NCBI RefSeq assembly: GCF_017916325.1
Contig: NC_090162.1
Location: forward strand, 367,501 to 427,500
Direction of reading: 5' to 3'
Source: Leishmania martiniquensis
Lineage: Eukaryota > Euglenozoa > Kinetoplastea > Trypanosomatida > Trypanosomatidae
DNA: 60,000 nt
The position numbers and the translations under genes are program-made. The notes beneath the pieces are model-generated. The model was given only the letters and a program-made list of their open reading frames with translations. It was not told the origin of the DNA and searched no databases. Positions 8,811 through 34,032 of the stretch are shown piece by piece; position 1 is the stretch's first letter, and each line of letters opens with the position of its first letter.

Positions 8811-8898
8811 CCTCCGCCCACAGACGCTGCCCACTCGCCCCACTGCGCTGGCCGTGCCTCATGCACGGCTCCCATCGTGCGGGCTGCCGCGTCCCCCA

Positions 8899-9339: not shown

Positions 9340-9545
9340 GTTCGCCGAGGGCGGTGGCGCCCCCTCCCCGCGGCCCCAGGGTCCCCGCGCGGGGCGGGGG
9401 CCGGTTCCCAGCCGGTTCGGTAGGCGGGGGCGTGGGGGGAGGGTTCCGTGGGGGGCGGGGTGGGCCTCGTTGGGCGGGTGTGGCCGGGGACGGGCGGCTC
9501 GCGTCGGCGCCAAGCGGGCGGGCAGCCGCCGGGGAGGGGGGCGCC
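9340..9545 (+). other. Extremely G-rich block, possible G-quadruplex DNA
   Basis: About 200 bp with very high GC and many runs of three to six G on the plus strand, dense enough for several overlapping quadruplexes. It lies just past the VPS18 stop codon, so minus-strand transcripts from VPS18 would be C-rich here and the displaced plus strand G-rich. This could favour R-loops or polymerase pausing at the strand switch. Composition is seen; function is inference. Confidence 0.6.
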
Positions 9546-9570
9546 GGAAAGCAGAATTAGTTTGAACGGG

Positions 9571-12500
9571 CTAAAGATCCCACGCGACGTCCTTTCGGCA
9601 CAGAGGAATGTCGACCTCCACCACAACGGCCTCGCCGCACAGCACGCAGTCCTGCTGCGCGAGCTGACGGGTGTCGCTGACGCCGTCCAGGACGTGCGGC
9701 GCGATGCCCTCGTCGGCCAGAAAGGCCTCAAGACCGCCGATCGACTCGAGTCGTGAGATTGCGCAAGCCTCGTGCACCACATGGCCGCAGTTGGGGTACA
9801 CTAAGTATGGCGTATTGCTCTGCAGCAGTGTCCGGTGGCACAGTGGACAGCGCTGGCTCGCTGTGATGTACCCAAACTGTTCGCGCGCCTGCCGCAAATC
9901 CTTCTTCACGCCTTCTGCGGTCTGGTACACCTCATCCTGCGTTCGGCTCAGCTGCCGCTTCTGTTGCGCATAGGTGTCGAAGTACTCGCAGATGGCGTCC
10001 CGGAAATCGTCGACGAGATTCACGTCGTCGATCCTACGGAGGACATCCTCGGTGTGGAGAATGCCGCCGGATTCCTGTACGACTGCGAGGGCCGCGGCAA
10101 CGTTGTGGCTGGCGAGCGCCTGCTCCGCCGTCAGCATCCACAGATGGCGCAGTTCGTCTTTACCGACCTTTCCGACAAGCCCGCGCAGCGTGTCTTCGGC
10201 GGCGACAATCCCCGGAAGCGCATCGTCGTCTTCCAACGGCTTGGCTACGTTCGCATCCTCGCTCGCGCCGCTGCCTGTGAGACGCTCGTGAGGTGCGTAC
10301 AGGGCTGTGGTGACGGCGTCGCGGTAGAGATGCATGTGTTTGTATAGGGCCACGGCAGCGGTCGTGCAACGGTGCTCCAGGCACATGCGCAGCGCGTAGC
10401 CCGTGTCGAAGAAAAGAGAGCTGCTGATGAAGTCGTCGAGGCGCACGGCATCGCGTGTCTGCGCAAGCAGGCGAACGTAGTAGTTATGCACGGCGCCCGA
10501 GGGGCAGCCATAGCGATGAATGCACTGATCGAGCAGCACCACCACCTGATGCTCCACATTACCGGCCACCTCGTTCATCGAAATATTGTAGCGCATAAAC
10601 GACGGTATCAGCCGCTCCATCTGCAGGGGAAGCACCCGACCCCACCGCGCCTCTTTCGCAAGCGCACGCAGCAGTGCCGTCACCAAGGCCACCGGCCGAT
10701 GCTGCATCAGCACAGAGGTAAACTCGTACCAGGGCAGAAGGCGGGCCGCAGAGCCGTGGCATGTGCCGAGGACCTTGACGGCCTCGTCGAACTGCTGCTG
10801 GGCGACGTGGTAGGCGACAACGTAGCGTGTGTGCTGCATTGTCTTGGCAAACAGCAACGCACTCTCGCCGTAGCCCTGCTCCTCCAGCAGCCGTACCACC
10901 AGCTCGTACACCGCCTTCTCCTTCAGAAAAGAACCGCACCGCTCCACTGTGCTCAGCAGGAACTCGTGAAGGTCCGCCTCGGCGGCGGGCGCCGCGGCAC
11001 TGCGCGCAACGCAGTCTAATTTCGCGAGGAGGAGAAGCACAAACAGGCAGGTTAGCTGCGGCGCCCAGTCGTCGAGCGAGACGAGGTGCGACAGCAGAAA
11101 CTGAAAGCGGGCCTCCACAAACGCCGTGCGCAGGTCCGTGTGGCGGTATGCCGTCAACAGCGCGTAGATGTCCTCGAACCAGTCGCACATGGCGAACTGG
11201 GTGATGGCGTGGCGTGTGGCGCCGCAGTCGAGAAAGAATCGGCCGCGATGAAACAGGCAGAGGTTGCGCTGGGTGTCCGAGTAAAAGGCAAGGCGGCACG
11301 CAGCATCCATGTAGCGTTTACGCACCGCCAATGACGCCTGCGCATCCTGTCCGCGCTCCAGAAAGAGACGCCACTGCTGGTGCGCCTCGTCCTCAATGAG
11401 CACTTCCCACAGGTGCGTGCGGCTGAAAAGAAAAAATCGGCGCGCCTCTGCGTCGTGGATGGCGCCGCACAGGTCAGAGGACGGCGGCGGTGATGCCCGG
11501 AACGGATCGAAGCGAATCCTCTGCGCCACCTCAGCCGGCAGCGGGGGTGCGAAGCGCCCGGCGGCACCGCCGCCGCTGTCGGCAGGGCTGCGCCACGAAG
11601 CTCCTGGAGGCTGGTGCAGCACCAGACATCGACGCGGGTACACTACAATCATGTGGAACGCCGTCGGGATCACTGCGATGGGGGCAACCGACGGTGGCAG
11701 CGCGCCCTTGTCAGCTCCAGAGCCAGTCGCGTCAGGGCTGTCTGCGAACCTTGCAAGCGAGAGCGACTGCTGATTCACCCGAGCCCCCTCCTCCTCCTCC
11801 TCTTCCGCGGAGGACGAAGCACCAAACGGCAGCCGCTCGTTTTCGTCGACAATGTCCGAAGAAACATCGCGGCGAAACAGTCCGTGCACGACACCCGCGG
11901 TACTATTCCACACGTACGACTGCGGCGCGGAGGCGCAAGAGGCACGGTAGACAAGCACCCGCCCGTCCACCTCCGGTGCGGAGGCGGAGCCGGCGTACAA
12001 GGGCACCGTCTGCGTGCGGAGCTTGACGTCGCCCGAGCTGAGGGCATGAAACAAAAGGGCTGGGGAGGAGATGCTGCGGCTGTGTGCTTCGTGCAGAGTG
12101 GTGGCAGTGGACATCAGCAGCACGCAGCCGCTTGCCCCCATTTTCGCAAAAACAATGGAGCGAATCGGGAAGAGGGACATTGCTGGCGAGGGCAGCGACC
12201 ACGCCACCTCTGCGCGCAGCTTGAACCGACTGGAGTTGCTGCTTCGGGCGTGCACGTGCAGAGCAAAGATGGCACGCCCCTTGTTCACCCCCATCAAGCA
12301 GCTCCACTCGGCGCCGCTCACCATTGCCGAGCCTTGCGTGGTAGACACGGACGCGGTATGGGCTCCCAAGGCGTCCGCGCTGTCTTTCAGCGCCGCCCCA
12401 TAGCTGTCCTGTGGAAGCCACCCAACGCACTCACCAACGACGACCTCCCGCGACCCCTGCACAAATCCACTGAGAGTGTCGGTCGCCTGTAGCTGAGTGG

Positions 12501-12840
12501 TGGCGCACATGCGTGCATCGAACGTGCGTTGCACGCTGACCTCACCGTCAGAGGCTGTCGCCACAACATAAGTGCCTTGGGGATGCACAAAGACTTTGTG
12601 AGGGTTGCGCACGAGTGTGCGGAGCAGCACGCGGTCCTCCCCAGCATCCCGGACCTCGAGCCATCCACTGCGGCGCAGCACCGCCATTACACCGGACTGG
12701 CAATTGACATCTTCAATAGGGTCCTGTCTATCAGAAAGGGGGTAGGTGACAAGCTCGAAGTGCGGTACCACAGGGTCGTGCAACGCATCAACGTGGCTCC
12801 GACTGTCACGCGGGGCCGCGTGTGCCATCGCCATATGCAC
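9571..12840 (-). CDS. VPS18: VPS18-like HOPS/CORVET tethering subunit
   Basis: A 1089-aa protein of the Pep3/Vps18 family, a core subunit of the HOPS and CORVET complexes that tether endosomal and lysosomal membranes before fusion. The first ~450 residues have the hydrophobic, strand-rich pattern of the Pep3/Vps18 propeller. The middle is alpha-solenoid (clathrin heavy-chain-like repeats), with a charged coiled segment near 960-990. The C-terminal RING-type finger is visible: C998, C1001, C1018, H1020, H1023, C1026, C1065 and C1068. The length fits the family. The first ATG (12840) is used; methionines at residues 3 and 5 are alternatives. It is the last gene of the minus cluster before the strand switch, and the tandem array lies upstream of it in transcription order. 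The alternative family, VPS11, also has a RING, but the overall pattern fits VPS18 better. Confidence 0.85.
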   Translation of the reverse strand: MHMAMAHAAPRDSRSHVDALHDPVVPHFELVTYPLSDRQDPIEDVNCQSGVMAVLRRSGWLEVRDAGEDRVLLRTLVRNPHKVFVHPQGTYVVATASDGEVSVQRTFDARMCATTQLQATDTLSGFVQGSREVVVGECVGWLPQDSYGAALKDSADALGAHTASVSTTQGSAMVSGAEWSCLMGVNKGRAIFALHVHARSSNSSRFKLRAEVAWSLPSPAMSLFPIRSIVFAKMGASGCVLLMSTATTLHEAHSRSISSPALLFHALSSGDVKLRTQTVPLYAGSASAPEVDGRVLVYRASCASAPQSYVWNSTAGVVHGLFRRDVSSDIVDENERLPFGASSSAEEEEEEGARVNQQSLSLARFADSPDATGSGADKGALPPSVAPIAVIPTAFHMIVVYPRRCLVLHQPPGASWRSPADSGGGAAGRFAPPLPAEVAQRIRFDPFRASPPPSSDLCGAIHDAEARRFFLFSRTHLWEVLIEDEAHQQWRLFLERGQDAQASLAVRKRYMDAACRLAFYSDTQRNLCLFHRGRFFLDCGATRHAITQFAMCDWFEDIYALLTAYRHTDLRTAFVEARFQFLLSHLVSLDDWAPQLTCLFVLLLLAKLDCVARSAAAPAAEADLHEFLLSTVERCGSFLKEKAVYELVVRLLEEQGYGESALLFAKTMQHTRYVVAYHVAQQQFDEAVKVLGTCHGSAARLLPWYEFTSVLMQHRPVALVTALLRALAKEARWGRVLPLQMERLIPSFMRYNISMNEVAGNVEHQVVVLLDQCIHRYGCPSGAVHNYYVRLLAQTRDAVRLDDFISSSLFFDTGYALRMCLEHRCTTAAVALYKHMHLYRDAVTTALYAPHERLTGSGASEDANVAKPLEDDDALPGIVAAEDTLRGLVGKVGKDELRHLWMLTAEQALASHNVAAALAVVQESGGILHTEDVLRRIDDVNLVDDFRDAICEYFDTYAQQKRQLSRTQDEVYQTAEGVKKDLRQAREQFGYITASQRCPLCHRTLLQSNTPYLVYPNCGHVVHEACAISRLESIGGLEAFLADEGIAPHVLDGVSDTRQLAQQDCVLCGEAVVVEVDIPLCRKDVAWDL

Positions 12841-13756: not shown

Positions 13757-13773
13757 CGTGCGCCCGCGCAGCG

Positions 13774-13858
13774 TCAGTGTGAGCTGAGTTGAAAAGTGCT
13801 ATGACCCCATTGCCGTGCTCGGACTGACAGGAAACTACGTGAATAGTGCTCTCATCAC
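13774..13858 (-). ncRNA. C/D box snoRNA in the shared core; predicted guide for LSU Am2946 (yeast numbering)
   Basis: An 85-nt minus-strand element with a perfect box C (GTGATGA), a D'-like CTGT 21 nt later, and a perfect box D (CTGA). One nt upstream of box D, the guide pairs over 12 contiguous bases, one of them G-U, with the conserved LSU rRNA segment GUGAGCUGGGUU. The fifth nucleotide from box D faces the A that corresponds to yeast 25S A2946, the target of yeast snR71. The flanking stem is weak (GCG/CGC). The 33 copies start at 13774, 14381, 14887, 15492, 15998, 16602, 17107, 17714, 18220, 18826, 19433, 19939, 20545, 21049, 21554, 22160, 22666, 23271, 23777, 24383, 24888, 25394, 26000, 26504, 27111, 27616, 28122, 28728, 29234, 29840, 30345, 30951 and 31457. 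The copy at 21049 carries one substitution between C and D'. The rRNA sequence is recalled, not looked up. Confidence 0.78.
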
Positions 13859-13946
13859 GCGCGTGCGCCTCGCGCATCGACGACAGGGCATGAAGGGGGA
13901 AGGGGGCAATACCGCCGATGTGGTCGGCGGGGCGCGCCACCGCACG

Positions 13947-14011
13947 GCATCTCGGAGAGTTGATGCTCCTACTCGCCCACTCGTGCGGGACGGCAGGACT
14001 CAATGCACTCC
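13947..14011 (-). ncRNA. Candidate H/ACA-like RNA with AGA box in module A
   Basis: A 65-nt minus-strand stretch ending in AGA plus three nucleotides, the 3' end format of trypanosomatid single-hairpin H/ACA-like RNAs. A short lower stem (GGAG/CUCC) closes just before the AGA, and an upper hairpin (UCCU/AGGA outer, CCC/GGG inner) can form. The lower stem is only 4 bp and I could not identify an rRNA target, so this is a weak call. Copies would lie in all 15 A units, about 132 nt after each A anchor. Confidence 0.35.
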
Positions 14012-14053
14012 TTTACGCATATGCGGCGCGCAGCAGTGCGCCACGGCAGCGCG

Positions 14054-14137
14054 TCAGACCTGTTGAGTTTTGACGTTTGGCTCGATATGTGCGCTCATGG
14101 CCTCGCTCGCGCACAACAGTGATGGATTCCTCATCAG
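14054..14137 (-). ncRNA. C/D box snoRNA in module A; predicted LSU target in the CCUGUUGAG segment
   Basis: An 84-nt minus-strand element with box C CTGATGA (first base off consensus), a D'-like CTGT, and box D CTGA. Starting one nt upstream of box D, the guide pairs over nine contiguous Watson-Crick bases with the universal LSU segment CCUGUUGAG, then two more pairs after a mismatch. The fifth nucleotide faces the G after CCCU. I know of no yeast methylation at exactly that base, so the site may be kinetoplastid-specific or the guide may act through another site. Copies lie about 238-239 nt after each A anchor, 15 in all. Confidence 0.6.
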
Positions 14138-14227
14138 AGCTACCCCGCGCTCGCACATAAGCACGCCATGCAGCAGTCGCACCAGCCCCCTTCACACACA
14201 CACATACACACACGCGTGCCGCCCAAG

Positions 14228-14306
14228 TCAGCCGAAAGGTGATTTGTGTGTCTGTATTCTCATGCGCCGGTCAAACTGTTTGGACCAACATCAATGCGTG
14301 CATCAT
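14228..14306 (-). ncRNA. C/D box snoRNA in module A; predicted guide for LSU Am807 (yeast numbering)
   Basis: A 79-nt minus-strand element with box C ATGATGC and box D CTGA, closed by a GCCGC/GCGGC terminal stem. The guide lies directly against box D and pairs with the conserved LSU segment CCGAAAGAUGGU at 11 of 12 positions (one mismatch, one G-U). The fifth nucleotide faces the A corresponding to yeast 25S A807, a known conserved 2'-O-methylation guided there by snR39/snR59. Fifteen copies, about 413 nt after each A anchor. Copies in the A units at 21595 and 28163 carry a G-to-A change on the plus strand inside the guide, which turns a C-G pair into U-G and so keeps pairing. Confidence 0.68.
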
Positions 14307-14421
14307 TCAGCGGCAGCGACGCGCACGCGCCAACACGCAGACCGCACACACACACGCACCCCGCGTGCGCCCGCGCAGCGTCAGTGTGAGCTGAGTTGAA
14401 AAGTGCTATGACCCCATTGCC

Positions 14422-14927
14422 GTGCTCGGACTGACAGGAAACTACGTGAATAGTGCTCTCATCACGCGCGTGTGCCTCGCGCAGCGGCAACGCAGGCCAC
14501 ACTCTGGCACAACAGGACAAGGACTTGCGTGGGAGGGGGCGCCCACCATTCCAAGGGAGTTGCGCGGTGGGCTTGGAGAAGGCATCATACGACAGGTCAC
14601 ACACACGCAGGCGCACAGACACACACAAAATCGCGCACGCACACACACCAGGCGCGATGGCACGGCACCACCAGCGCGGGACAGCGCCCGGCTCACCGCC
14701 GCTGTCACCCTCTCTTTCTCTCTTGAACTTTCGGGCGCTAGTGTCACTGACAGGTGTAAAGACAGGCGCCAGACAGGTCAAGATAACGCGGCCGTCCGCG
14801 CCGTTGTTTTCGCCCTCCCCTTCCGCCCCCTCTCTCCGTTACGCAGACCGCACACACACACGCACCCCGCGTGCGCCCGCGCAGCGTCAGTGTGAGCTGA
14901 GTTGAAAAGTGCTATGACCCCATTGCC
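14422..14927. repeat. Module B, first copy (506 bp)
   Basis: Reference copy of module B. Its specific part carries one H/ACA-like RNA on the minus strand, several CA tracts and a C/T-rich stretch near 14809-14845. A single-base variant (CCACCAG versus CCACGAG, at about 14668-14674 in this copy) separates two B subtypes. The CCACGAG subtype occurs in the units at 21090, 24929, 27657, 28769 and 30992. Confidence 0.9.
14500..14565 (-). ncRNA. H/ACA-like single-hairpin RNA with AGA box in module B
   Basis: A 66-nt minus-strand element with the compact trypanosomatid H/ACA layout: a 7-bp lower stem GCGCAAC/GUUGUGC (one G-U), an internal pocket of 12 and 15 nt, a 5-bp upper stem GUGGG/CCCAC with an 8-nt loop, then C-AGA-GUG, so the AGA box sits exactly 3 nt from the end. 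Seventeen complete copies lie 78 nt after each B anchor. In the B units at 20586, 21090, 24424 and 29881 a 1-nt deletion falls in the apical loop and leaves both stems intact. The truncated last unit keeps only the 3' half. I did not find the pseudouridylation target. Confidence 0.62.
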
Positions 14928-17900
14928 GTGCTCGGACTGACAGGAAACTACGTGAATAGTGCTCTCATCACGCGCGTGCGCCTCGCGCATCGACGACAGG
15001 GCATGAAGGGGGAAGGGGCAATACCGCCGATGTGGTCGGCGGGGCGCGCCACCGCACGGCATCTCGGAGAGTTGATGCTCCTACTCGCCCACTCGTGCGG
15101 GACGGCAGGACTCAATGCACTCCTTTACGCATATGCGGCGCGCAGCAGTGCGCCACGGCAGCGCGTCAGACCTGTTGAGTTTTGACGTTTGGCTCGATAT
15201 GTGCGCTCATGGCCTCGCTCGCGCACAACAGTGATGGATTCCTCATCAGAGCTACCCCGCGCTCGCACATAAGCACGCCATGCAGCAGTCGCACCAGCCC
15301 CTTCACACACACACATACACACACGCGTGCCGCCCAAGTCAGCCGAAAGGTGATTTGTGTGTCTGTATTCTCATGCGCCGGTCAAACTGTTTGGACCAAC
15401 ATCAATGCGTGCATCATTCAGCGGCAGCGACGCGCACGCGCCAACACGCAGACCGCACACACACACGCACCCCGCGTGCGCCCGCGCAGCGTCAGTGTGA
15501 GCTGAGTTGAAAAGTGCTATGACCCCATTGCCGTGCTCGGACTGACAGGAAACTACGTGAATAGTGCTCTCATCACGCGCGTGTGCCTCGCGCAGCGGCA
15601 ACGCAGGCCACACTCTGGCACAACAGGACAAGGACTTGCGTGGGAGGGGGCGCCCACCATTCCAAGGGAGTTGCGCGGTGGGCTTGGAGAAGGCATCATA
15701 CGACAGGTCACACACACGCAGGCGCACAGACACACACAAAATCGCGCACGCACACACACCAGGCGCGATGGCACGGCACCACCAGCGCGGGACAGCGCCC
15801 GGCTCACCGCCGCTGTCACCCTCTCTTTCTCTCTTGAACTTTCGGGCGCTAGTGTCACTGACAGGTGTAAAGACAGGCGCCAGACAGGTCAAGATAACGC
15901 GGCCGTCCGCGCCGTTGTTTTCGCCCTCCCCTTCCGCCCCCTCTCTCCGTTACGCAGACCGCACACACACACGCACCCCGCGTGCGCCCGCGCAGCGTCA
16001 GTGTGAGCTGAGTTGAAAAGTGCTATGACCCCATTGCCGTGCTCGGACTGACAGGAAACTACGTGAATAGTGCTCTCATCACGCGCGTGCGCCTCGCGCA
16101 TCGACGACAGGGCATGAAGGGGAAGGGGCAATACCGCCGATGTGGTCGGCGGGGCGCGCCACCGCACGGCATCTCGGAGAGTTGATGCTCCTACTCGCCC
16201 ACTCGTGCGGGACGGCAGGACTCAATGCACTCCTTTACGCATATGCGGCGCGCAGCAGTGCGCCACGGCAGCGCGTCAGACCTGTTGAGTTTTGACGTTT
16301 GGCTCGATATGTGCGCTCATGGCCTCGCTCGCGCACAACAGTGATGGATTCCTCATCAGAGCTACCCCGCGCTCGCACATAAGCACGCCATGCAGCAGTC
16401 GCACCAGCCCCTTCACACACACACATACACACACGCGTGCCGCCCAAGTCAGCCGAAAGGTGATTTGTGTGTCTGTATTCTCATGCGCCGGTCAAACTGT
16501 TTGGACCAACATCAATGCGTGCATCATTCAGCGGCAGCGACGCGCACGCGCCAACACGCAGACCGCACACACACACGCACCCCGCGTGCGCCCGCGCAGC
16601 GTCAGTGTGAGCTGAGTTGAAAAGTGCTATGACCCCATTGCCGTGCTCGGACTGACAGGAAACTACGTGAATAGTGCTCTCATCACGCGCGTGTGCCTCG
16701 CGCAGCGGCAACGCAGGCCACACTCTGGCACAACAGGACAAGGACTTGCGTGGGAGGGGGCGCCCACCATTCCAAGGGAGTTGCGCGGTGGGCTTGGAGA
16801 AGGCATCATACGACAGGTCACACACACGCAGGCGCACAGACACACACAAAATCGCGCACGCACACACACCAGGCGCGATGGCACGGCACCACCAGCGCGG
16901 GACAGCGCCCGGCTCACCGCCGCTGTCACCCTCTCTTTCTCTCTTGAACTTTCGGGCGCTAGTGTCACTGACAGGTGTAAAGACAGGCGCCAGACAGGTC
17001 AAGATAACGCGGCCGTCCGCGCCGTTGTTTTCGCCCTCCCCTTCCGCCCCTCTCTCCGTTACGCAGACCGCACACACACACGCACCCCGCGTGCGCCCGC
17101 GCAGCGTCAGTGTGAGCTGAGTTGAAAAGTGCTATGACCCCATTGCCGTGCTCGGACTGACAGGAAACTACGTGAATAGTGCTCTCATCACGCGCGTGCG
17201 CCTCGCGCATCGACGACAGGGCATGAAGGGGGAAGGGGGCAATACCGCCGATGTGGTCGGCGGGGCGCGCCACCGCACGGCATCTCGGAGAGTTGATGCT
17301 CCTACTCGCCCACTCGTGCGGGACGGCAGGACTCAATGCACTCCTTTACGCATATGCGGCGCGCAGCAGTGCGCCACGGCAGCGCGTCAGACCTGTTGAG
17401 TTTTGACGTTTGGCTCGATATGTGCGCTCATGGCCTCGCTCGCGCACAACAGTGATGGATTCCTCATCAGAGCTACCCCGCGCTCGCACATAAGCACGCC
17501 ATGCAGCAGTCGCACCAGCCCCCTTCACACACACACATACACACACGCGTGCCGCCCAAGTCAGCCGAAAGGTGATTTGTGTGTCTGTATTCTCATGCGC
17601 CGGTCAAACTGTTTGGACCAACATCAATGCGTGCATCATTCAGCGGCAGCGACGCGCACGCGCCAACACGCAGACCGCACACACACACGCACCCCGCGTG
17701 CGCCCGCGCAGCGTCAGTGTGAGCTGAGTTGAAAAGTGCTATGACCCCATTGCCGTGCTCGGACTGACAGGAAACTACGTGAATAGTGCTCTCATCACGC
17801 GCGTGTGCCTCGCGCAGCGGCAACGCAGGCCACACTCTGGCACAACAGGACAAGGACTTGCGTGGGAGGGGGCGCCCACCATTCCAAGGGAGTTGCGCGG

Positions 17901-20900
17901 TGGGCTTGGAGAAGGCATCATACGACAGGTCACACACACGCAGGCGCACAGACACACACAAAATCGCGCACGCACACACACCAGGCGCGATGGCACGGCA
18001 CCACCAGCGCGGGACAGCGCCCGGCTCACCGCCGCTGTCACCCTCTCTTTCTCTCTTGAACTTTCGGGCGCTAGTGTCACTGACAGGTGTAAAGACAGGC
18101 GCCAGACAGGTCAAGATAACGCGGCCGTCCGCGCCGTTGTTTTCGCCCTCCCCTTCCGCCCCCTCTCTCCGTTACGCAGACCGCACACACACACGCACCC
18201 CGCGTGCGCCCGCGCAGCGTCAGTGTGAGCTGAGTTGAAAAGTGCTATGACCCCATTGCCGTGCTCGGACTGACAGGAAACTACGTGAATAGTGCTCTCA
18301 TCACGCGCGTGCGCCTCGCGCATCGACGACAGGGCATGAAGGGGAAGGGGGCAATACCGCCGATGTGGTCGGCGGGGCGCGCCACCGCACGGCATCTCGG
18401 AGAGTTGATGCTCCTACTCGCCCACTCGTGCGGGACGGCAGGACTCAATGCACTCCTTTACGCATATGCGGCGCGCAGCAGTGCGCCACGGCAGCGCGTC
18501 AGACCTGTTGAGTTTTGACGTTTGGCTCGATATGTGCGCTCATGGCCTCGCTCGCGCACAACAGTGATGGATTCCTCATCAGAGCTACCCCGCGCTCGCA
18601 CATAAGCACGCCATGCAGCAGTCGCACCAGCCCCCTTCACACACACACATACACACACGCGTGCCGCCCAAGTCAGCCGAAAGGTGATTTGTGTGTCTGT
18701 ATTCTCATGCGCCGGTCAAACTGTTTGGACCAACATCAATGCGTGCATCATTCAGCGGCAGCGACGCGCACGCGCCAACACGCAGACCGCACACACACAC
18801 GCACCCCGCGTGCGCCCGCGCAGCGTCAGTGTGAGCTGAGTTGAAAAGTGCTATGACCCCATTGCCGTGCTCGGACTGACAGGAAACTACGTGAATAGTG
18901 CTCTCATCACGCGCGTGCGCCTCGCGCATCGACGACAGGGCATGAAGGGGGAAGGGGGCAATACCGCCGATGTGGTCGGCGGGGCGCGCCACCGCACGGC
19001 ATCTCGGAGAGTTGATGCTCCTACTCGCCCACTCGTGCGGGACGGCAGGACTCAATGCACTCCTTTACGCATATGCGGCGCGCAGCAGTGCGCCACGGCA
19101 GCGCGTCAGACCTGTTGAGTTTTGACGTTTGGCTCGATATGTGCGCTCATGGCCTCGCTCGCGCACAACAGTGATGGATTCCTCATCAGAGCTACCCCGC
19201 GCTCGCACATAAGCACGCCATGCAGCAGTCGCACCAGCCCCCTTCACACACACACATACACACACGCGTGCCGCCCAAGTCAGCCGAAAGGTGATTTGTG
19301 TGTCTGTATTCTCATGCGCCGGTCAAACTGTTTGGACCAACATCAATGCGTGCATCATTCAGCGGCAGCGACGCGCACGCGCCAACACGCAGACCGCACA
19401 CACACACGCACCCCGCGTGCGCCCGCGCAGCGTCAGTGTGAGCTGAGTTGAAAAGTGCTATGACCCCATTGCCGTGCTCGGACTGACAGGAAACTACGTG
19501 AATAGTGCTCTCATCACGCGCGTGTGCCTCGCGCAGCGGCAACGCAGGCCACACTCTGGCACAACAGGACAAGGACTTGCGTGGGAGGGGGCGCCCACCA
19601 TTCCAAGGGAGTTGCGCGGTGGGCTTGGAGAAGGCATCATACGACAGGTCACACACACGCAGGCGCACAGACACACACAAAATCGCGCACGCACACACAC
19701 CAGGCGCGATGGCACGGCACCACCAGCGCGGGACAGCGCCCGGCTCACCGCCGCTGTCACCCTCTCTTTCTCTCTTGAACTTTCGGGCGCTAGTGTCACT
19801 GACAGGTGTAAAGACAGGCGCCAGACAGGTCAAGATAACGCGGCCGTCCGCGCCGTTGTTTTCGCCCTCCCCTTCCGCCCCCTCTCTCCGTTACGCAGAC
19901 CGCACACACACACGCACCCCGCGTGCGCCCGCGCAGCGTCAGTGTGAGCTGAGTTGAAAAGTGCTATGACCCCATTGCCGTGCTCGGACTGACAGGAAAC
20001 TACGTGAATAGTGCTCTCATCACGCGCGTGCGCCTCGCGCATCGACGACAGGGCATGAAGGGGAAGGGGGCAATACCGCCGATGTGGTCGGCGGGGCGCG
20101 CCACCGCACGGCATCTCGGAGAGTTGATGCTCCTACTCGCCCACTCGTGCGGGACGGCAGGACTCAATGCACTCCTTTACGCATATGCGGCGCGCAGCAG
20201 TGCGCCACGGCAGCGCGTCAGACCTGTTGAGTTTTGACGTTTGGCTCGATATGTGCGCTCATGGCCTCGCTCGCGCACAACAGTGATGGATTCCTCATCA
20301 GAGCTACCCCGCGCTCGCACATAAGCACGCCATGCAGCAGTCGCACCAGCCCCCTTCACACACACACATACACACACGCGTGCCGCCCAAGTCAGCCGAA
20401 AGGTGATTTGTGTGTCTGTATTCTCATGCGCCGGTCAAACTGTTTGGACCAACATCAATGCGTGCATCATTCAGCGGCAGCGACGCGCACGCGCCAACAC
20501 GCAGACCGCACACACACACGCACCCCGCGTGCGCCCGCGCAGCGTCAGTGTGAGCTGAGTTGAAAAGTGCTATGACCCCATTGCCGTGCTCGGACTGACA
20601 GGAAACTACGTGAATAGTGCTCTCATCACGCGCGTGTGCCTCGCGCAGCGGCAACGCAGGCCACACTCTGGCACAACAGGACAAGGACTTGCGTGGGAGG
20701 GGCGCCCACCATTCCAAGGGAGTTGCGCGGTGGGCTTGGAGAAGGCATCATACGACAGGTCACACACACGCAGGCGCACAGACACACACAAAATCGCGCA
20801 CGCACACACACCAGGCGCGATGGCACGGCACCACCAGCGCGGGACAGCGCCCGGCTCACCGCCGCTGTCACCCTCTCTTTCTCTCTTGAACTTTCGGGCG

Positions 20901-23900
20901 CTAGTGTCACTGACAGGTGTAAAGACAGGCGCCAGACAGGTCAAGATAACGCGGCCGTCCGCGCCGTTGTTTTCGCCCTCCCCTTCCGCCCCTCTCTCCG
21001 TTACGCAGACCGCACACACACACGCACCCCGCGTGCGCCCGCGCAGCGTCAGTGTGAGCTGAGTTGAAAAGTGCTATGACCCCATTGCCGTGCTCGGACT
21101 GACAGGAAACTACGTGAACAGTGCTCTCATCACGCGCGTGTGCCTCGCGCAGCGGCAACGCAGGCCACACTCTGGCACAACAGGACAAGGACTTGCGTGG
21201 GAGGGGCGCCCACCATTCCAAGGGAGTTGCGCGGTGGGCTTGGAGAAGGCATCATACGACAGGTCACACACACGCAGGCGCACAGACACACACAAAATCG
21301 CGCACGCACACACACCAGGCGCGATGGCACGGCACCACGAGCGCGGGACAGCGCCCGGCTCACCGCCGCTGTCACCCTCTCTTTCTCTCTTGAACTTTCG
21401 GGCGCTAGTGTCACTGACAGGTGTAAAGACAGGCGCCAGACAGGTCAAGATAACGCGGCCGTCCGCGCCGTTGTTTTCGCCCTCCCCTTCCGCCCCCTCT
21501 CTCCGTTACGCAGACCGCACACACACACGCACCCCGCGTGCGCCCGCGCAGCGTCAGTGTGAGCTGAGTTGAAAAGTGCTATGACCCCATTGCCGTGCTC
21601 GGACTGACAGGAAACTACGTGAATAGTGCTCTCATCACGCGCGTGCGCCTCGCGCATCGACGACAGGGCATGAAGGGGGAAGGGGGCAATACCGCCGATG
21701 TGGTCGGCGGGGCGCGCCACCGCACGGCATCTCGGAGAGTTGATGCTCCTACTCGCCCACTCGTGCGGGACGGCAGGACTCAATGCACTCCTTTACGCAT
21801 ATGCGGCGCGCAGCAGTGCGCCACGGCAGCGCGTCAGACCTGTTGAGTTTTGACGTTTGGCTCGATATGTGCGCTCATGGCCTCGCTCGCGCACAACAGT
21901 GATGGATTCCTCATCAGAGCTACCCCGCGCTCGCACATAAGCACGCCATGCAGCAGTCGCACCAGCCCCTTCACACACACACATACACACACGCGTGCCG
22001 CCCAAGTCAGCCGAAAAGTGATTTGTGTGTCTGTATTCTCATGCGCCGGTCAAACTGTTTGGACCAACATCAATGCGTGCATCATTCAGCGGCAGCGACG
22101 CGCACGCGCCAACACGCAGACCGCACACACACACGCACCCCGCGTGCGCCCGCGCAGCGTCAGTGTGAGCTGAGTTGAAAAGTGCTATGACCCCATTGCC
22201 GTGCTCGGACTGACAGGAAACTACGTGAATAGTGCTCTCATCACGCGCGTGTGCCTCGCGCAGCGGCAACGCAGGCCACACTCTGGCACAACAGGACAAG
22301 GACTTGCGTGGGAGGGGGCGCCCACCATTCCAAGGGAGTTGCGCGGTGGGCTTGGAGAAGGCATCATACGACAGGTCACACACACGCAGGCGCACAGACA
22401 CACACAAAATCGCGCACGCACACACACCAGGCGCGATGGCACGGCACCACCAGCGCGGGACAGCGCCCGGCTCACCGCCGCTGTCACCCTCTCTTTCTCT
22501 CTTGAACTTTCGGGCGCTAGTGTCACTGACAGGTGTAAAGACAGGCGCCAGACAGGTCAAGATAACGCGGCCGTCCGCGCCGTTGTTTTCGCCCTCCCCT
22601 TCCGCCCCCTCTCTCCGTTACGCAGACCGCACACACACACGCACCCCGCGTGCGCCCGCGCAGCGTCAGTGTGAGCTGAGTTGAAAAGTGCTATGACCCC
22701 ATTGCCGTGCTCGGACTGACAGGAAACTACGTGAATAGTGCTCTCATCACGCGCGTGCGCCTCGCGCATCGACGACAGGGCATGAAGGGGAAGGGGGCAA
22801 TACCGCCGATGTGGTCGGCGGGGCGCGCCACCGCACGGCATCTCGGAGAGTTGATGCTCCTACTCGCCCACTCGTGCGGGACGGCAGGACTCAATGCACT
22901 CCTTTACGCATATGCGGCGCGCAGCAGTGCGCCACGGCAGCGCGTCAGACCTGTTGAGTTTTGACGTTTGGCTCGATATGTGCGCTCATGGCCTCGCTCG
23001 CGCACAACAGTGATGGATTCCTCATCAGAGCTACCCCGCGCTCGCACATAAGCACGCCATGCAGCAGTCGCACCAGCCCCTTCACACACACACATACACA
23101 CACGCGTGCCGCCCAAGTCAGCCGAAAGGTGATTTGTGTGTCTGTATTCTCATGCGCCGGTCAAACTGTTTGGACCAACATCAATGCGTGCATCATTCAG
23201 CGGCAGCGACGCGCACGCGCCAACACGCAGACCGCACACACACACGCACCCCGCGTGCGCCCGCGCAGCGTCAGTGTGAGCTGAGTTGAAAAGTGCTATG
23301 ACCCCATTGCCGTGCTCGGACTGACAGGAAACTACGTGAATAGTGCTCTCATCACGCGCGTGTGCCTCGCGCAGCGGCAACGCAGGCCACACTCTGGCAC
23401 AACAGGACAAGGACTTGCGTGGGAGGGGGCGCCCACCATTCCAAGGGAGTTGCGCGGTGGGCTTGGAGAAGGCATCATACGACAGGTCACACACACGCAG
23501 GCGCACAGACACACACAAAATCGCGCACGCACACACACCAGGCGCGATGGCACGGCACCACCAGCGCGGGACAGCGCCCGGCTCACCGCCGCTGTCACCC
23601 TCTCTTTCTCTCTTGAACTTTCGGGCGCTAGTGTCACTGACAGGTGTAAAGACAGGCGCCAGACAGGTCAAGATAACGCGGCCGTCCGCGCCGTTGTTTT
23701 CGCCCTCCCCTTCCGCCCCCTCTCTCCGTTACGCAGACCGCACACACACACGCACCCCGCGTGCGCCCGCGCAGCGTCAGTGTGAGCTGAGTTGAAAAGT
23801 GCTATGACCCCATTGCCGTGCTCGGACTGACAGGAAACTACGTGAATAGTGCTCTCATCACGCGCGTGCGCCTCGCGCATCGACGACAGGGCATGAAGGG

Positions 23901-26900
23901 GGAAGGGGGCAATACCGCCGATGTGGTCGGCGGGGCGCGCCACCGCACGGCATCTCGGAGAGTTGATGCTCCTACTCGCCCACTCGTGCGGGACGGCAGG
24001 ACTCAATGCACTCCTTTACGCATATGCGGCGCGCAGCAGTGCGCCACGGCAGCGCGTCAGACCTGTTGAGTTTTGACGTTTGGCTCGATATGTGCGCTCA
24101 TGGCCTCGCTCGCGCACAACAGTGATGGATTCCTCATCAGAGCTACCCCGCGCTCGCACATAAGCACGCCATGCAGCAGTCGCACCAGCCCCTTCACACA
24201 CACACATACACACACGCGTGCCGCCCAAGTCAGCCGAAAGGTGATTTGTGTGTCTGTATTCTCATGCGCCGGTCAAACTGTTTGGACCAACATCAATGCG
24301 TGCATCATTCAGCGGCAGCGACGCGCACGCGCCAACACGCAGACCGCACACACACACGCACCCCGCGTGCGCCCGCGCAGCGTCAGTGTGAGCTGAGTTG
24401 AAAAGTGCTATGACCCCATTGCCGTGCTCGGACTGACAGGAAACTACGTGAATAGTGCTCTCATCACGCGCGTGTGCCTCGCGCAGCGGCAACGCAGGCC
24501 ACACTCTGGCACAACAGGACAAGGACTTGCGTGGGAGGGGCGCCCACCATTCCAAGGGAGTTGCGCGGTGGGCTTGGAGAAGGCATCATACGACAGGTCA
24601 CACACACGCAGGCGCACAGACACACACAAAATCGCGCACGCACACACACCAGGCGCGATGGCACGGCACCACCAGCGCGGGACAGCGCCCGGCTCACCGC
24701 CGCTGTCACCCTCTCTTTCTCTCTTGAACTTTCGGGCGCTAGTGTCACTGACAGGTGTAAAGACAGGCGCCAGACAGGTCAAGATAACGCGGCCGTCCGC
24801 GCCGTTGTTTTCGCCCTCCCCTTCCGCCCCCTCTCTCCGTTACGCAGACCGCACACACACACGCACCCCGCGTGCGCCCGCGCAGCGTCAGTGTGAGCTG
24901 AGTTGAAAAGTGCTATGACCCCATTGCCGTGCTCGGACTGACAGGAAACTACGTGAATAGTGCTCTCATCACGCGCGTGTGCCTCGCGCAGCGGCAACGC
25001 AGGCCACACTCTGGCACAACAGGACAAGGACTTGCGTGGGAGGGGGCGCCCACCATTCCAAGGGAGTTGCGCGGTGGGCTTGGAGAAGGCATCATACGAC
25101 AGGTCACACACACGCAGGCGCACAGACACACACAAAATCGCGCACGCACACACACCAGGCGCGATGGCACGGCACCACGAGCGCGGGACAGCGCCCGGCT
25201 CACCGCCGCTGTCACCCTCTCTTTCTCTCTTGAACTTTCGGGCGCTAGTGTCACTGACAGGTGTAAAGACAGGCGCCAGACAGGTCAAGATAACGCGGCC
25301 GTCCGCGCCGTTGTTTTCGCCCTCCCCTTCCGCCCCCTCTCTCCGTTACGCAGACCGCACACACACACGCACCCCGCGTGCGCCCGCGCAGCGTCAGTGT
25401 GAGCTGAGTTGAAAAGTGCTATGACCCCATTGCCGTGCTCGGACTGACAGGAAACTACGTGAATAGTGCTCTCATCACGCGCGTGCGCCTCGCGCATCGA
25501 CGACAGGGCATGAAGGGGGAAGGGGGCAATACCGCCGATGTGGTCGGCGGGGCGCGCCACCGCACGGCATCTCGGAGAGTTGATGCTCCTACTCGCCCAC
25601 TCGTGCGGGACGGCAGGACTCAATGCACTCCTTTACGCATATGCGGCGCGCAGCAGTGCGCCACGGCAGCGCGTCAGACCTGTTGAGTTTTGACGTTTGG
25701 CTCGATATGTGCGCTCATGGCCTCGCTCGCGCACAACAGTGATGGATTCCTCATCAGAGCTACCCCGCGCTCGCACATAAGCACGCCATGCAGCAGTCGC
25801 ACCAGCCCCTTCACACACACACATACACACACGCGTGCCGCCCAAGTCAGCCGAAAGGTGATTTGTGTGTCTGTATTCTCATGCGCCGGTCAAACTGTTT
25901 GGACCAACATCAATGCGTGCATCATTCAGCGGCAGCGACGCGCACGCGCCAACACGCAGACCGCACACACACACGCACCCCGCGTGCGCCCGCGCAGCGT
26001 CAGTGTGAGCTGAGTTGAAAAGTGCTATGACCCCATTGCCGTGCTCGGACTGACAGGAAACTACGTGAATAGTGCTCTCATCACGCGCGTGTGCCTCGCG
26101 CAGCGGCAACGCAGGCCACACTCTGGCACAACAGGACAAGGACTTGCGTGGGAGGGGGCGCCCACCATTCCAAGGGAGTTGCGCGGTGGGCTTGGAGAAG
26201 GCATCATACGACAGGTCACACACACGCAGGCGCACAGACACACACAAAATCGCGCACGCACACACACCAGGCGCGATGGCACGGCACCACCAGCGCGGGA
26301 CAGCGCCCGGCTCACCGCCGCTGTCACCCTCTCTTTCTCTCTTGAACTTTCGGGCGCTAGTGTCACTGACAGGTGTAAAGACAGGCGCCAGACAGGTCAA
26401 GATAACGCGGCCGTCCGCGCCGTTGTTTTCGCCCTCCCCTTCCGCCCCCTCTCTCCGTTACGCAGACCGCACACACACGCACCCCGCGTGCGCCCGCGCA
26501 GCGTCAGTGTGAGCTGAGTTGAAAAGTGCTATGACCCCATTGCCGTGCTCGGACTGACAGGAAACTACGTGAATAGTGCTCTCATCACGCGCGTGCGCCT
26601 CGCGCATCGACGACAGGGCATGAAGGGGGAAGGGGGCAATACCGCCGATGTGGTCGGCGGGGCGCGCCACCGCACGGCATCTCGGAGAGTTGATGCTCCT
26701 ACTCGCCCACTCGTGCGGGACGGCAGGACTCAATGCACTCCTTTACGCATATGCGGCGCGCAGCAGTGCGCCACGGCAGCGCGTCAGACCTGTTGAGTTT
26801 TGACGTTTGGCTCGATATGTGCGCTCATGGCCTCGCTCGCGCACAACAGTGATGGATTCCTCATCAGAGCTACCCCGCGCTCGCACATAAGCACGCCATG

Positions 26901-29900
26901 CAGCAGTCGCACCAGCCCCCTTCACACACACACATACACACACGCGTGCCGCCCAAGTCAGCCGAAAGGTGATTTGTGTGTCTGTATTCTCATGCGCCGG
27001 TCAAACTGTTTGGACCAACATCAATGCGTGCATCATTCAGCGGCAGCGACGCGCACGCGCCAACACGCAGACCGCACACACACACGCACCCCGCGTGCGC
27101 CCGCGCAGCGTCAGTGTGAGCTGAGTTGAAAAGTGCTATGACCCCATTGCCGTGCTCGGACTGACAGGAAACTACGTGAATAGTGCTCTCATCACGCGCG
27201 TGTGCCTCGCGCAGCGGCAACGCAGGCCACACTCTGGCACAACAGGACAAGGACTTGCGTGGGAGGGGGCGCCCACCATTCCAAGGGAGTTGCGCGGTGG
27301 GCTTGGAGAAGGCATCATACGACAGGTCACACACACGCAGGCGCACAGACACACACAAAATCGCGCACGCACACACACCAGGCGCGATGGCACGGCACCA
27401 CCAGCGCGGGACAGCGCCCGGCTCACCGCCGCTGTCACCCTCTCTTTCTCTCTTGAACTTTCGGGCGCTAGTGTCACTGACAGGTGTAAAGACAGGCGCC
27501 AGACAGGTCAAGATAACGCGGCCGTCCGCGCCGTTGTTTTCGCCCTCCCCTTCCGCCCCTCTCTCCGTTACGCAGACCGCACACACACACGCACCCCGCG
27601 TGCGCCCGCGCAGCGTCAGTGTGAGCTGAGTTGAAAAGTGCTATGACCCCATTGCCGTGCTCGGACTGACAGGAAACTACGTGAATAGTGCTCTCATCAC
27701 GCGCGTGTGCCTCGCGCAGCGGCAACGCAGGCCACACTCTGGCACAACAGGACAAGGACTTGCGTGGGAGGGGGCGCCCACCATTCCAAGGGAGTTGCGC
27801 GGTGGGCTTGGAGAAGGCATCATACGACAGGTCACACACACGCAGGCGCACAGACACACACAAAATCGCGCACGCACACACACCAGGCGCGATGGCACGG
27901 CACCACGAGCGCGGGACAGCGCCCGGCTCACCGCCGCTGTCACCCTCTCTTTCTCTCTTGAACTTTCGGGCGCTAGTGTCACTGACAGGTGTAAAGACAG
28001 GCGCCAGACAGGTCAAGATAACGCGGCCGTCCGCGCCGTTGTTTTCGCCCTCCCCTTCCGCCCCCTCTCTCCGTTACGCAGACCGCACACACACACGCAC
28101 CCCGCGTGCGCCCGCGCAGCGTCAGTGTGAGCTGAGTTGAAAAGTGCTATGACCCCATTGCCGTGCTCGGACTGACAGGAAACTACGTGAATAGTGCTCT
28201 CATCACGCGCGTGCGCCTCGCGCATCGACGACAGGGCATGAAGGGGGAAGGGGCAATACCGCCGATGTGGTCGGCGGGGCGCGCCACCGCACGGCATCTC
28301 GGAGAGTTGATGCTCCTACTCGCCCACTCGTGCGGGACGGCAGGACTCAATGCACTCCTTTACGCATATGCGGCGCGCAGCAGTGCGCCACGGCAGCGCG
28401 TCAGACCTGTTGAGTTTTGACGTTTGGCTCGATATGTGCGCTCATGGCCTCGCTCGCGCACAACAGTGATGGATTCCTCATCAGAGCTACCCCGCGCTCG
28501 CACATAAGCACGCCATGCAGCAGTCGCACCAGCCCCCTTCACACACACACATACACACACGCGTGCCGCCCAAGTCAGCCGAAAAGTGATTTGTGTGTCT
28601 GTATTCTCATGCGCCGGTCAAACTGTTTGGACCAACATCAATGCGTGCATCATTCAGCGGCAGCGACGCGCACGCGCCAACACGCAGACCGCACACACAC
28701 ACGCACCCCGCGTGCGCCCGCGCAGCGTCAGTGTGAGCTGAGTTGAAAAGTGCTATGACCCCATTGCCGTGCTCGGACTGACAGGAAACTACGTGAATAG
28801 TGCTCTCATCACGCGCGTGTGCCTCGCGCAGCGGCAACGCAGGCCACACTCTGGCACAACAGGACAAGGACTTGCGTGGGAGGGGGCGCCCACCATTCCA
28901 AGGGAGTTGCGCGGTGGGCTTGGAGAAGGCATCATACGACAGGTCACACACACGCAGGCGCACAGACACACACAAAATCGCGCACGCACACACACCAGGC
29001 GCGATGGCACGGCACCACGAGCGCGGGACAGCGCCCGGCTCACCGCCGCTGTCACCCTCTCTTTCTCTCTTGAACTTTCGGGCGCTAGTGTCACTGACAG
29101 GTGTAAAGACAGGCGCCAGACAGGTCAAGATAACGCGGCCGTCCGCGCCGTTGTTTTCGCCCTCCCCTTCCGCCCCCTCTCTCCGTTACGCAGACCGCAC
29201 ACACACACGCACCCCGCGTGCGCCCGCGCAGCGTCAGTGTGAGCTGAGTTGAAAAGTGCTATGACCCCATTGCCGTGCTCGGACTGACAGGAAACTACGT
29301 GAATAGTGCTCTCATCACGCGCGTGCGCCTCGCGCATCGACGACAGGGCATGAAGGGGGAAGGGGCAATACCGCCGATGTGGTCGGCGGGGCGCGCCACC
29401 GCACGGCATCTCGGAGAGTTGATGCTCCTACTCGCCCACTCGTGCGGGACGGCAGGACTCAATGCACTCCTTTACGCATATGCGGCGCGCAGCAGTGCGC
29501 CACGGCAGCGCGTCAGACCTGTTGAGTTTTGACGTTTGGCTCGATATGTGCGCTCATGGCCTCGCTCGCGCACAACAGTGATGGATTCCTCATCAGAGCT
29601 ACCCCGCGCTCGCACATAAGCACGCCATGCAGCAGTCGCACCAGCCCCCTTCACACACACACATACACACACGCGTGCCGCCCAAGTCAGCCGAAAGGTG
29701 ATTTGTGTGTCTGTATTCTCATGCGCCGGTCAAACTGTTTGGACCAACATCAATGCGTGCATCATTCAGCGGCAGCGACGCGCACGCGCCAACACGCAGA
29801 CCGCACACACACACGCACCCCGCGTGCGCCCGCGCAGCGTCAGTGTGAGCTGAGTTGAAAAGTGCTATGACCCCATTGCCGTGCTCGGACTGACAGGAAA

Positions 29901-31456
29901 CTACGTGAATAGTGCTCTCATCACGCGCGTGTGCCTCGCGCAGCGGCAACGCAGGCCACACTCTGGCACAACAGGACAAGGACTTGCGTGGGAGGGGCGC
30001 CCACCATTCCAAGGGAGTTGCGCGGTGGGCTTGGAGAAGGCATCATACGACAGGTCACACACACGCAGGCGCACAGACACACACAAAATCGCGCACGCAC
30101 ACACACCAGGCGCGATGGCACGGCACCACCAGCGCGGGACAGCGCCCGGCTCACCGCCGCTGTCACCCTCTCTTTCTCTCTTGAACTTTCGGGCGCTAGT
30201 GTCACTGACAGGTGTAAAGACAGGCGCCAGACAGGTCAAGATAACGCGGCCGTCCGCGCCGTTGTTTTCGCCCTCCCCTTCCGCCCCCTCTCTCCGTTAC
30301 GCAGACCGCACACACACACGCACCCCGCGTGCGCCCGCGCAGCGTCAGTGTGAGCTGAGTTGAAAAGTGCTATGACCCCATTGCCGTGCTCGGACTGACA
30401 GGAAACTACGTGAATAGTGCTCTCATCACGCGCGTGCGCCTCGCGCATCGACGACAGGGCATGAAGGGGGAAGGGGCAATACCGCCGATGTGGTCGGCGG
30501 GGCGCGCCACCGCACGGCATCTCGGAGAGTTGATGCTCCTACTCGCCCACTCGTGCGGGACGGCAGGACTCAATGCACTCCTTTACGCATATGCGGCGCG
30601 CAGCAGTGCGCCACGGCAGCGCGTCAGACCTGTTGAGTTTTGACGTTTGGCTCGATATGTGCGCTCATGGCCTCGCTCGCGCACAACAGTGATGGATTCC
30701 TCATCAGAGCTACCCCGCGCTCGCACATAAGCACGCCATGCAGCAGTCGCACCAGCCCCCTTCACACACACACATACACACACGCGTGCCGCCCAAGTCA
30801 GCCGAAAGGTGATTTGTGTGTCTGTATTCTCATGCGCCGGTCAAACTGTTTGGACCAACATCAATGCGTGCATCATTCAGCGGCAGCGACGCGCACGCGC
30901 CAACACGCAGACCGCACACACACACGCACCCCGCGTGCGCCCGCGCAGCGTCAGTGTGAGCTGAGTTGAAAAGTGCTATGACCCCATTGCCGTGCTCGGA
31001 CTGACAGGAAACTACGTGAATAGTGCTCTCATCACGCGCGTGTGCCTCGCGCAGCGGCAACGCAGGCCACACTCTGGCACAACAGGACAAGGACTTGCGT
31101 GGGAGGGGGCGCCCACCATTCCAAGGGAGTTGCGCGGTGGGCTTGGAGAAGGCATCATACGACAGGTCACACACACGCAGGCGCACAGACACACACAAAA
31201 TCGCGCACGCACACACACCAGGCGCGATGGCACGGCACCACGAGCGCGGGACAGCGCCCGGCTCACCGCCGCTGTCACCCTCTCTTTCTCTCTTGAACTT
31301 TCGGGCGCTAGTGTCACTGACAGGTGTAAAGACAGGCGCCAGACAGGTCAAGATAACGCGGCCGTCCGCGCCGTTGTTTTCGCCCTCCCCTTCCGCCCCC
31401 TCTCTCCGTTACGCAGACCGCACACACACACGCACCCCGCGTGCGCCCGCGCAGCG

Positions 31457-31604
31457 TCAGTGTGAGCTGAGTTGAAAAGTGCTATGACCCCATTGCCGTG
31501 CTCGGACTGACAGGAAACTACGTGAATAGTGCTCTCATCACGCGCGTGCGCCTCGCGCAGCGGCAACGCAGGCCACACTCTGGCACAACAGGACAGGGTC
31601 TTGC
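31457..31604. repeat. Truncated chimeric last unit of the array
   Basis: The array ends in a partial unit. Its core junction has the A-type base (GCGTGCGCC) but continues as B (CGCAGCGGCAAC), then loses similarity at about 31594-31604. It holds the last complete copy of the shared-core C/D RNA and only the 3' half of the B-type H/ACA-like RNA. Confidence 0.75.
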
Positions 31605-33096: not shown

Positions 33097-34032
33097 TTAC
33101 TTCATCTTTCGCAATTCCAGCGCGAACAGCACCTCCTCCGATGTCGAGTAAAGGGAGGGAAAGAGCATGGGCGTGATCGACTGGTACACCGCGTAGCCGG
33201 CATATTTTTGAGCGGACAGTCGCTCAGTTATCGTAGCTGTCGACGTGAAGACGAAAAGCCCAAGTATGGCGCACCCGGGCCACTGCCACCAAGCCATCGG
33301 CGCTACCCCACAGCAGTGCGCCGCCACCGCCAACATCATCCACAGTGACGCCTCACAGAACACATTTAGGTGCCGACTATAGCCGAAGCAGCCTGTCACA
33401 CAGAATCCGTGGCAGTAAGGGGTCTGACGCGGCGTACGGGCCTTTGCGCACTGAAAGCGCCACTGCTGCTCATCGCAGATCGTCTCAACGGCGATGAGAG
33501 TCAATAGTATGAGTGCAAGCGTGACGTCCTTCGCTGTTGCCGGCCGAGCTGGAAACTGCATGACCGGCAGCGTAATGGCCCACAGCAGACACGTTTGAAA
33601 GACTGAGATCACAACGAGGTGGAAGAGCGTCCACACGATGGGTGAGCCGGAGAAGACGCGCCACGAGCGTACGTAGGCCCACCGATAGTCCTCGCCGCCA
33701 CGGGCGTACCCGCCGCGGCGGTAGAAGTTGAAGGTCAGGCGGCATCCCCACAATGTTATGACGAGGCCGAAGAGGATGGCGCAGCTCAGCGGGAACGAGG
33801 GCTGCTTTCCAGCGCGGTTGACAGCAGCCCAGCGTGCCTCCCTGTGCGTGTAGTACACCTGGATCCACGTGTGCACCATCGGTATAATAGACCACAGCCT
33901 GTCTACCCACGAGTAGTTGTTGTTGTGGAGCGCGACCACAAACAGCACAACCGACGCCAAGGCTGTCAGGGAGCCGGAAAGCGTCATGGACGTCGCCGTA
34001 ATGGCTGCGACCGCGCCGGCGAGCGATTCCAT
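33097..34032 (-). CDS. DUF1295 family multi-pass membrane protein (steroid 5-alpha-reductase-like)
   Basis: A 311-aa integral membrane protein of the DUF1295 family, related to the C-terminal part of steroid 5-alpha-reductases and isoprenylcysteine methyltransferases. Family marks are visible: the SWVDRLWSI motif near residue 41, WGCRLTFNFYRRGGY near 95-109, then ETICDEQQWRFQ and a C-terminal region with GFCVTGCFGYSRHLNVFCE, where aligned enzymes hold the NADPH-binding GLFxxSRHPNYxxE pattern. Here SRH and N are kept and the usual proline is leucine. At least six hydrophobic segments are evident. The likely place is ER or another endomembrane. Substrate unknown; a reductase role is inference from the fold. 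In transcription order it comes just before the snoRNA-like array. Confidence 0.82.
   Translation of the reverse strand: MESLAGAVAAITATSMTLSGSLTALASVVLFVVALHNNNYSWVDRLWSIIPMVHTWIQVYYTHREARWAAVNRAGKQPSFPLSCAILFGLVITLWGCRLTFNFYRRGGYARGGEDYRWAYVRSWRVFSGSPIVWTLFHLVVISVFQTCLLWAITLPVMQFPARPATAKDVTLALILLTLIAVETICDEQQWRFQCAKARTPRQTPYCHGFCVTGCFGYSRHLNVFCEASLWMMLAVAAHCCGVAPMAWWQWPGCAILGLFVFTSTATITERLSAQKYAGYAVYQSITPMLFPSLYSTSEEVLFALELRKMK

Follow-up and report, generated by a model that had tools for sequence, protein, structure and literature searches.

What is encoded by 17.8 kb of near-identical tandem repeats lying between protein-coding genes of Leishmania martiniquensis? The repeats fill positions 13,757–31,604 of a 60,000-nucleotide stretch of DNA (the window), which represents bases 367,501–427,500 of contig NC_090162.1 (C27 below, 1.14 Mb long). 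A reading made from the letters alone, hereafter the sequence-only reading, had proposed that this is a minus-strand array of box C/D and H/ACA-like small nucleolar RNA (snoRNA) genes, embedded between minus-strand protein genes. The array was confirmed at exactly these positions, and Rfam matches, box motifs and guide pairing all support that description of it. We can also put a name to it. Judged from its sequence, the array is almost certainly the Leishmania counterpart of the Trypanosoma brucei TB11Cs4 cluster, amplified as two types of unit that are both headed by the same box C/D gene, C1.

Two unit types built from six RNA genes

The array comprises 33 tandem units on the minus strand, in a window that is free of N. 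Seventeen are A units (∼506 bp) with the genes C1-H1-H3, 15 are B units (∼606 bp) with the genes C1-C2-C3-H2, and a terminal partial unit consists of the last C1. The array and its parts, with one example of each unit and gene, are as follows.

13757..31604, minus strand: whole snoRNA array, 33 units, placed by anchors
14470..14975, minus strand: example A unit (C1-H1-H3)
13863..14469, minus strand: example B unit (C1-C2-C3-H2)
14887..14971, minus strand: C1 (example from an A unit), box C/D, ∼85 nucleotides, 33 copies; C box GTGATGA, D box CTGA, D' box CCGA
14228..14307, minus strand: C2 (example), box C/D, ∼80 nucleotides, 15 copies; C box ATGATGC, D box CTGA, D' box TTGA
14054..14137, minus strand: C3 (example), box C/D, ∼84 nucleotides, 15 copies; C box CTGATGA, D box CTGA
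14717..14786, minus strand: H1 (example), single-hairpin H/ACA-like with AGA box, ∼70 nucleotides, 17 copies; TB11Cs4H1, RF01539
13950..14013, minus strand: H2 (example), single-hairpin H/ACA-like with AGA box, ∼64 nucleotides, 15 copies; TB11Cs4H2, RF01540
14500..14566, minus strand: H3 (example), H/ACA-like, ∼67 nucleotides, 17 copies and one truncated; probable TB11Cs4H3, RF01541
31560..31604 (about), minus strand: truncated H3 at the upstream array edge
13774..13858, minus strand: terminal C1 at the downstream array edge
Unit starts 1–17, minus strand: 31545, 31039, 30433, 29928, 29322, 28816, 28210, 27704, 27199, 26592, 26088, 25482, 24976, 24471, 23865, 23359, 22754
Unit starts 18–33, minus strand: 22248, 21642, 21136, 20633, 20027, 19521, 18914, 18308, 17802, 17195, 16690, 16086, 15580, 14975, 14469, 13862

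Along the direction of transcription the units are ordered ABABABAABABAABABABAABABBABABABAB, followed by the final C1, so that three AA junctions and one BB junction are irregular. Anchors placed on the minus strand gave 33 copies of C1 (32 exact and one, in the unit starting at 21,136, with a substitution), while H1 and H3 came to 17 copies apiece and C2, C3 and H2 to 15; on the plus strand there were none for any gene. The 15 and 17 modules counted from the letters alone agree in number with our 15 H2-type and 17 H1-type units. The earlier inventory of 63 C/D and 32 H/ACA-like genes was likewise reproduced on both counts, but it had missed a third H/ACA-like gene, H3, with its 17 copies. The total becomes 63 C/D and 49 H/ACA-like genes, or ∼112 copies of six genes.

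From the C1 anchor onwards, A and B units are identical over 135 bases, and the short stretch that precedes the anchor is alike except for one base. At the downstream edge of the array the repeat homology ends soon after a C1 D box; the upstream edge falls within the truncated H3. Both strands of the array are devoid of ATG-initiated open reading frames (ORFs) of 180 or more amino acids.

Box C/D snoRNAs carry a C box (RUGAUGA) and a D box (CUGA) near their ends. All three C/D genes have the D box CTGA; the C box is exact in C1 and one base off in C2 and C3. C2 gave a weak match (21.8 bits) to the snoZ196 model. Although its D guide resembles that of the snoZ196/R39/R59 family, C2 lies far under the gathering score of 55, and its guide is without three of the family's nucleotides.

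Correspondence with the TB11Cs4 cluster

When the window was searched with Rfam, TB11Cs4H1 (RF01539) gave 17 matches at 78.8 bits (gathering score 45) and TB11Cs4H2 (RF01540) gave 15 matches at 76.9 bits (gathering score 50), all on the minus strand, and no other family exceeded its gathering score. Each H1 and H2 copy has an E-value of ∼1e-14 and the same two models gave zero matches in 14 control genomes, so chance is excluded for these two genes. Trypanosomatid single-hairpin H/ACA-like snoRNAs end in an AGA box at the 3' end, and the H1 and H2 model alignments both finish in GAGA. Fold z-scores are −3.01 for H1 and −3.16 for H2, and just −1.28 for H3. For the rest of the A unit, TB11Cs4H3 (RF01541) was the top match: a permissive search of a 1.8-kb piece aligns it with H3 at 26.9 bits (E 0.018). 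Its position, this partial model match and its AGA box make H3 the probable TB11Cs4H3.

These matches also dispose of the idea that we are looking at a plain satellite-like repeat in which C/D-like motifs arise by chance. The GT-rich spacers of the array do trigger simple-repeat calls. Nevertheless, 32 covariance-model matches far over threshold, set against silence in the 14 control genomes, refute such a repeat; D guides that fit published sites argue in the same direction, and we give the idea virtually no credence. A search of a plasmid collection gave no match.

The C/D genes can be compared with T. brucei through their targets. In Table 2 of PMC9283944, the part of that RiboMeth-seq study used here, TB11Cs4C1 is assigned to A1388 and A1400 of the large subunit (LSU)-beta rRNA, TB11Cs4C2 to U916 and A927 of LSU-alpha, and TB11Cs4C3 to U672 and G673 of LSU-beta. 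We took the methylated nucleotide to be the one facing the fifth nucleotide of guide pairing next to box D or D', and ranked positions within rRNA-bearing contigs by counting only strictly better ones, ties sharing a rank. LSU status was confirmed by Rfam for two contigs (L037 and L040) and not called for a third (L041); the others were accepted on at least two LSU landmarks, and short ends on one.

The D guide of C1 meets GUGAGCUGGGUU over 12 pairs; in each of the eight contigs that contain the site, this position ranks first within the contig, and none of 200 site shuffles did as well. Exactly 12 nucleotides upstream of this site lies an A addressed by the D' guide of C1, with 12–13 pairs in five of the eight contigs (rank 1 in four and rank 3 in one). 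The D guide of C2 points to the second A of CCGAAAG, ranking first in four and second in four of the eight contigs with the CCCGAAAG motif. For C3, the D guide selects the G within CCUGUUGAG, which ranks first in 10 and second in two of 12 contigs. An earlier test on three short rRNA pieces had given 0 of 500 shuffles for the C1 D guide, 6 of 500 for C1 D' and 0 of 500 for C2 D. The predicted nucleotides, two A residues 12 nucleotides apart, an A and a G, equal the TB11Cs4C1, C2 and C3 entries of the excerpted table (PMC9283944) in base and in spacing. Moreover, G925, a neighbouring site in that table, lands on the G of CCGAA as expected.

For H1, the uridine of ACCGUCG-U-GAGACAGG is the top site in five of nine contigs, that is, in all five that have a U there; of the remaining four, two carry C instead and two are without the region. 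We take this uridine to be position 2944 of yeast 25S rRNA. One candidate for H2, GUUGC-U-UUUUGAUCC, was weak (within the three best sites in three of nine contigs) and was rejected.

The likeness to TB11Cs4 can be summarized gene by gene: H1 and H2 match models of this numbered cluster strongly and H3 weakly, and the D guides of C1, C2 and C3 address the same nucleotides in conserved LSU rRNA. The two may differ in form, since C1 occurs here in each of two unit types and the units number 33; we liken them by content and targets.

Several observations weigh against this identification. H3 scores below the gathering score of RF01541 (40), and a genome-wide search with RF01541 at E 0.001 gave zero matches, with the caution that it gave zero in the controls as well. 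The guides were paired with LSU rRNA of other eukaryotes, from pieces contaminating IMG/VR and GTDB records, rather than with the species' own rRNA; one further pattern yielded no additional pieces. Moreover, the LSU motifs by which contigs were found were chosen after the fit to the guides had been seen, which makes the choice of sites not blind; ranks, shuffles and the published sites are the controls for this. The C1 D' guide has almost no pairs in the other three of its eight contigs, where the local sequence differs, and the D' guide of C2 fits the U 11 nucleotides upstream of the C2 D site well in just two of eight. On the three short pieces, C2 D' and C3 D did no better than shuffles (the piece that should carry the C3 site is truncated there). 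The H1 pairing comprises three bases 5' of the uridine and nine on its other side and carries no shuffle control. Among the nine contigs, no consistent site emerged when the H1 and H3 pockets were placed in a second register, H2 had no consistent target, and H3 had no target. Finally, silencing of NOP1 in T. brucei did not lower the signal significantly at A1388, A1400 or A927 (p 0.12, 0.97 and 0.17), according to the same excerpt of PMC9283944; there the signal does fall at U916, U672 and G673. Even so, we hold to the TB11Cs4 assignment, in which model matches speak for H1 and H2, target sites for C1, C2 and C3, and a weak match for H3.

Looking for the species' own rRNA, we obtained nil from Rfam on 19 of 25 ten-kilobase stretches of C27, zero matches to two universal rRNA patterns genome-wide, and none of three small-subunit motifs (one mismatch allowed) in the 34 loci that were checked. 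The rDNA of the species may be unassembled or too diverged for these patterns. As a separate observation, eukaryotic ribosomal DNA (rDNA) occurs in contigs filed as bacterial in GTDB (for example a Caedibacter record, L113, and a Flavobacteriales record, L085) and is also found fused to unrelated sequence in contigs of IMG/VR. The rDNA-bearing loci across the two collections are L059, L060, L065, L083, L085, L088, L089, L104 and L113, together with L037 and L040.

Copy number and comparison with other Leishmania

The units are very alike, as had been claimed for each module type. Mean pairwise identity is 99.66% among the 17 A units (seven distinct sequences) and 99.62% among the 15 B units (nine distinct sequences). 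The A alignment has eight variable columns, two of them within the RNA genes, which make up 44% of the unit; columns 1 and 507, counted as variable, stem from where one unit was cut. The B alignment has six, one of them within RNA genes (52% of the unit). Substitutions are scattered, at A columns 19 and 304 and B columns 232, 569 and 571, and several of the unit variants are differences in homopolymer length. B column 232 lies in the D guide of C2, where two of 15 copies have a C-to-T change; a G-C pair with rRNA would there become G-U.

Tandem arrays may contain silent copies, and one could suppose that most of these genes are dead duplicates, with few units expressed. We think this very improbable: the copies are near-identical, few variable columns fall inside the RNA genes, and every copy lies on one strand with the adjoining protein genes.

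How many units there are in the organism is another matter. The first 5,000 bases of C27 (locus L009) hold a second piece of the array in the same orientation, with six H1 and three H2 copies, and this piece begins mid-unit at the first base of the contig, without telomere repeat. Genome-wide (32.3 Mb, 41 contigs), H1 and H2 occur in at least 23 and at least 18 places, lower bounds because each search scored no more than 64 first-look candidates, and all are on C27; the H3 region was found in 23 copies, likewise on C27. Copy number is uncertain because of the additional 5 kb at the contig start. The assembler may have collapsed, lengthened or split such a near-identical array, in which case the assembled count would not be the biological one. 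Besides the 5.0 kb that starts mid-unit, homopolymer-length variants resembling long-read errors speak for this, as do collapsed repeats reported for L. major in excerpts of PMC4746890 and PMC8468144. On the other hand, the array is gap-free with unique flanks on both sides, and the non-periodic A/B order and scattered substitutions are unlike a pure copying artefact. We regard a wrong count as a real possibility, though not the one we favour, and it bears on the number of copies rather than on their identity.

The sequence-only reading had called so many units unusual. The comparison does not establish this. In L. donovani, 1,504 snoRNA genes fall into 42 clusters spread over 24 chromosomes, and chromosomes 5, 33 and 26 carry 269, 193 and 160 of them, respectively (PMC8959184, section 25). 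The ∼112 genes here are about three times the L. donovani cluster mean of 36 and below those chromosome totals. In L. major, annotated snoRNA, small nuclear RNA and spliced leader (SL) RNA genes rose from 747 to 1,128 in a new assembly (excerpt of PMC8468144), and a snoRNA cluster on Leishmania chromosome 26 varies in copy number (excerpt of PMC6222132). Arrays in L. major, L. donovani and L. infantum likewise sit as clusters between protein genes, and snoRNA copies run to hundreds in each genome (PMC8959184, PMC8468144 and PMC6222132). The present array, though large, is probably not much out of the ordinary for Leishmania; C1 heading both unit types is its one less ordinary feature. No description of this array was found in the literature searched, which did not take in the 2015 L. 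major catalogue and an earlier catalogue.

Genomic setting, proposed function and origin

The genes around the array are as follows.

33097..34032, minus strand: DUF1295 gene, upstream of the array (PF06966, E 2.4e-28)
9571..12834, minus strand: downstream protein gene, with sub-cut-off clathrin-repeat and Vps41-RING matches
537–5990, plus strand: FYVE/PIP5K gene
8029–8616, plus strand: RTE1-like gene

The two flanking genes had been named DUF1295 and VPS18. The first name stands; its protein shares 82% identity with the one from Leishmania enriettii and at most 74% with those of L. braziliensis, L. mexicana and L. tarentolae, which most likely places the species in the Leishmania subgenus Mundinia. 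The VPS18 label is unproven, the two matches being weak and below the cut-off. Counting ORFs of at least 180 amino acids with a Pfam match, the plus-strand ORFs reach as far as 8,616 and the minus-strand series stops at 9,571; this convergent strand switch (8,616–9,571) places the array near the end of its transcription unit. Elsewhere in the window, a gene with an XRN 5'-3' exonuclease N-terminal domain lies at 38,826–40,574 on the minus strand, 7 kb upstream of the array, and positions 56,001–58,000 have a lower GC content (0.534) and a strong AT skew (0.41) relative to the rest.

The direction of these genes and published work on such clusters suggest that the minus strand would be transcribed within a long polycistronic unit, with the DUF1295 gene upstream and the Vps-like gene downstream, and that single snoRNAs would be cut out of the transcript. 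According to PMC2679053, no L. major snoRNA cluster has a transcription-factor peak to itself apart from one on chromosome 5; this fits read-through transcription. From the predicted pairings we infer that the array guides would modify rRNA. C1 would direct 2'-O-methylation at two LSU adenosines 12 nucleotides apart (A1388 and A1400 of T. brucei LSU-beta), C2 at A927 and possibly U916 of LSU-alpha, and C3 at G673 of LSU-beta; H1 would direct the change to pseudouridine at the U of ACCGUCG-U-GAGACAGG.

Dosage is the most likely reason for so many copies: an array that lacks its own promoter and is steadily transcribed would yield RNA in proportion to its copy number. Unequal exchange could take place within the ∼150 bp that the units have in common around C1 and would account for the three AA junctions and the BB junction; exchange within the C1 block appears the simplest account of the layout. 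A bolder proposal, to which we attach little probability, is that the layout acts as a two-cassette dosage device. Unequal exchange would then add or drop H1-H3 and C2-C3-H2 separately, shifting the ratios of the guides, whereas C1 would stay in about two-fold excess.

What looked like a striking repeat is thus explained as ordinary biology of the genus, with H3 added to its inventory and target nucleotides named. The dosage of snoRNAs has already been linked to the adaptation of Leishmania to culture (PMC8959184, section 25), and the two cassettes sharing C1 offer a concrete model of how copy-number change could shift that dosage.

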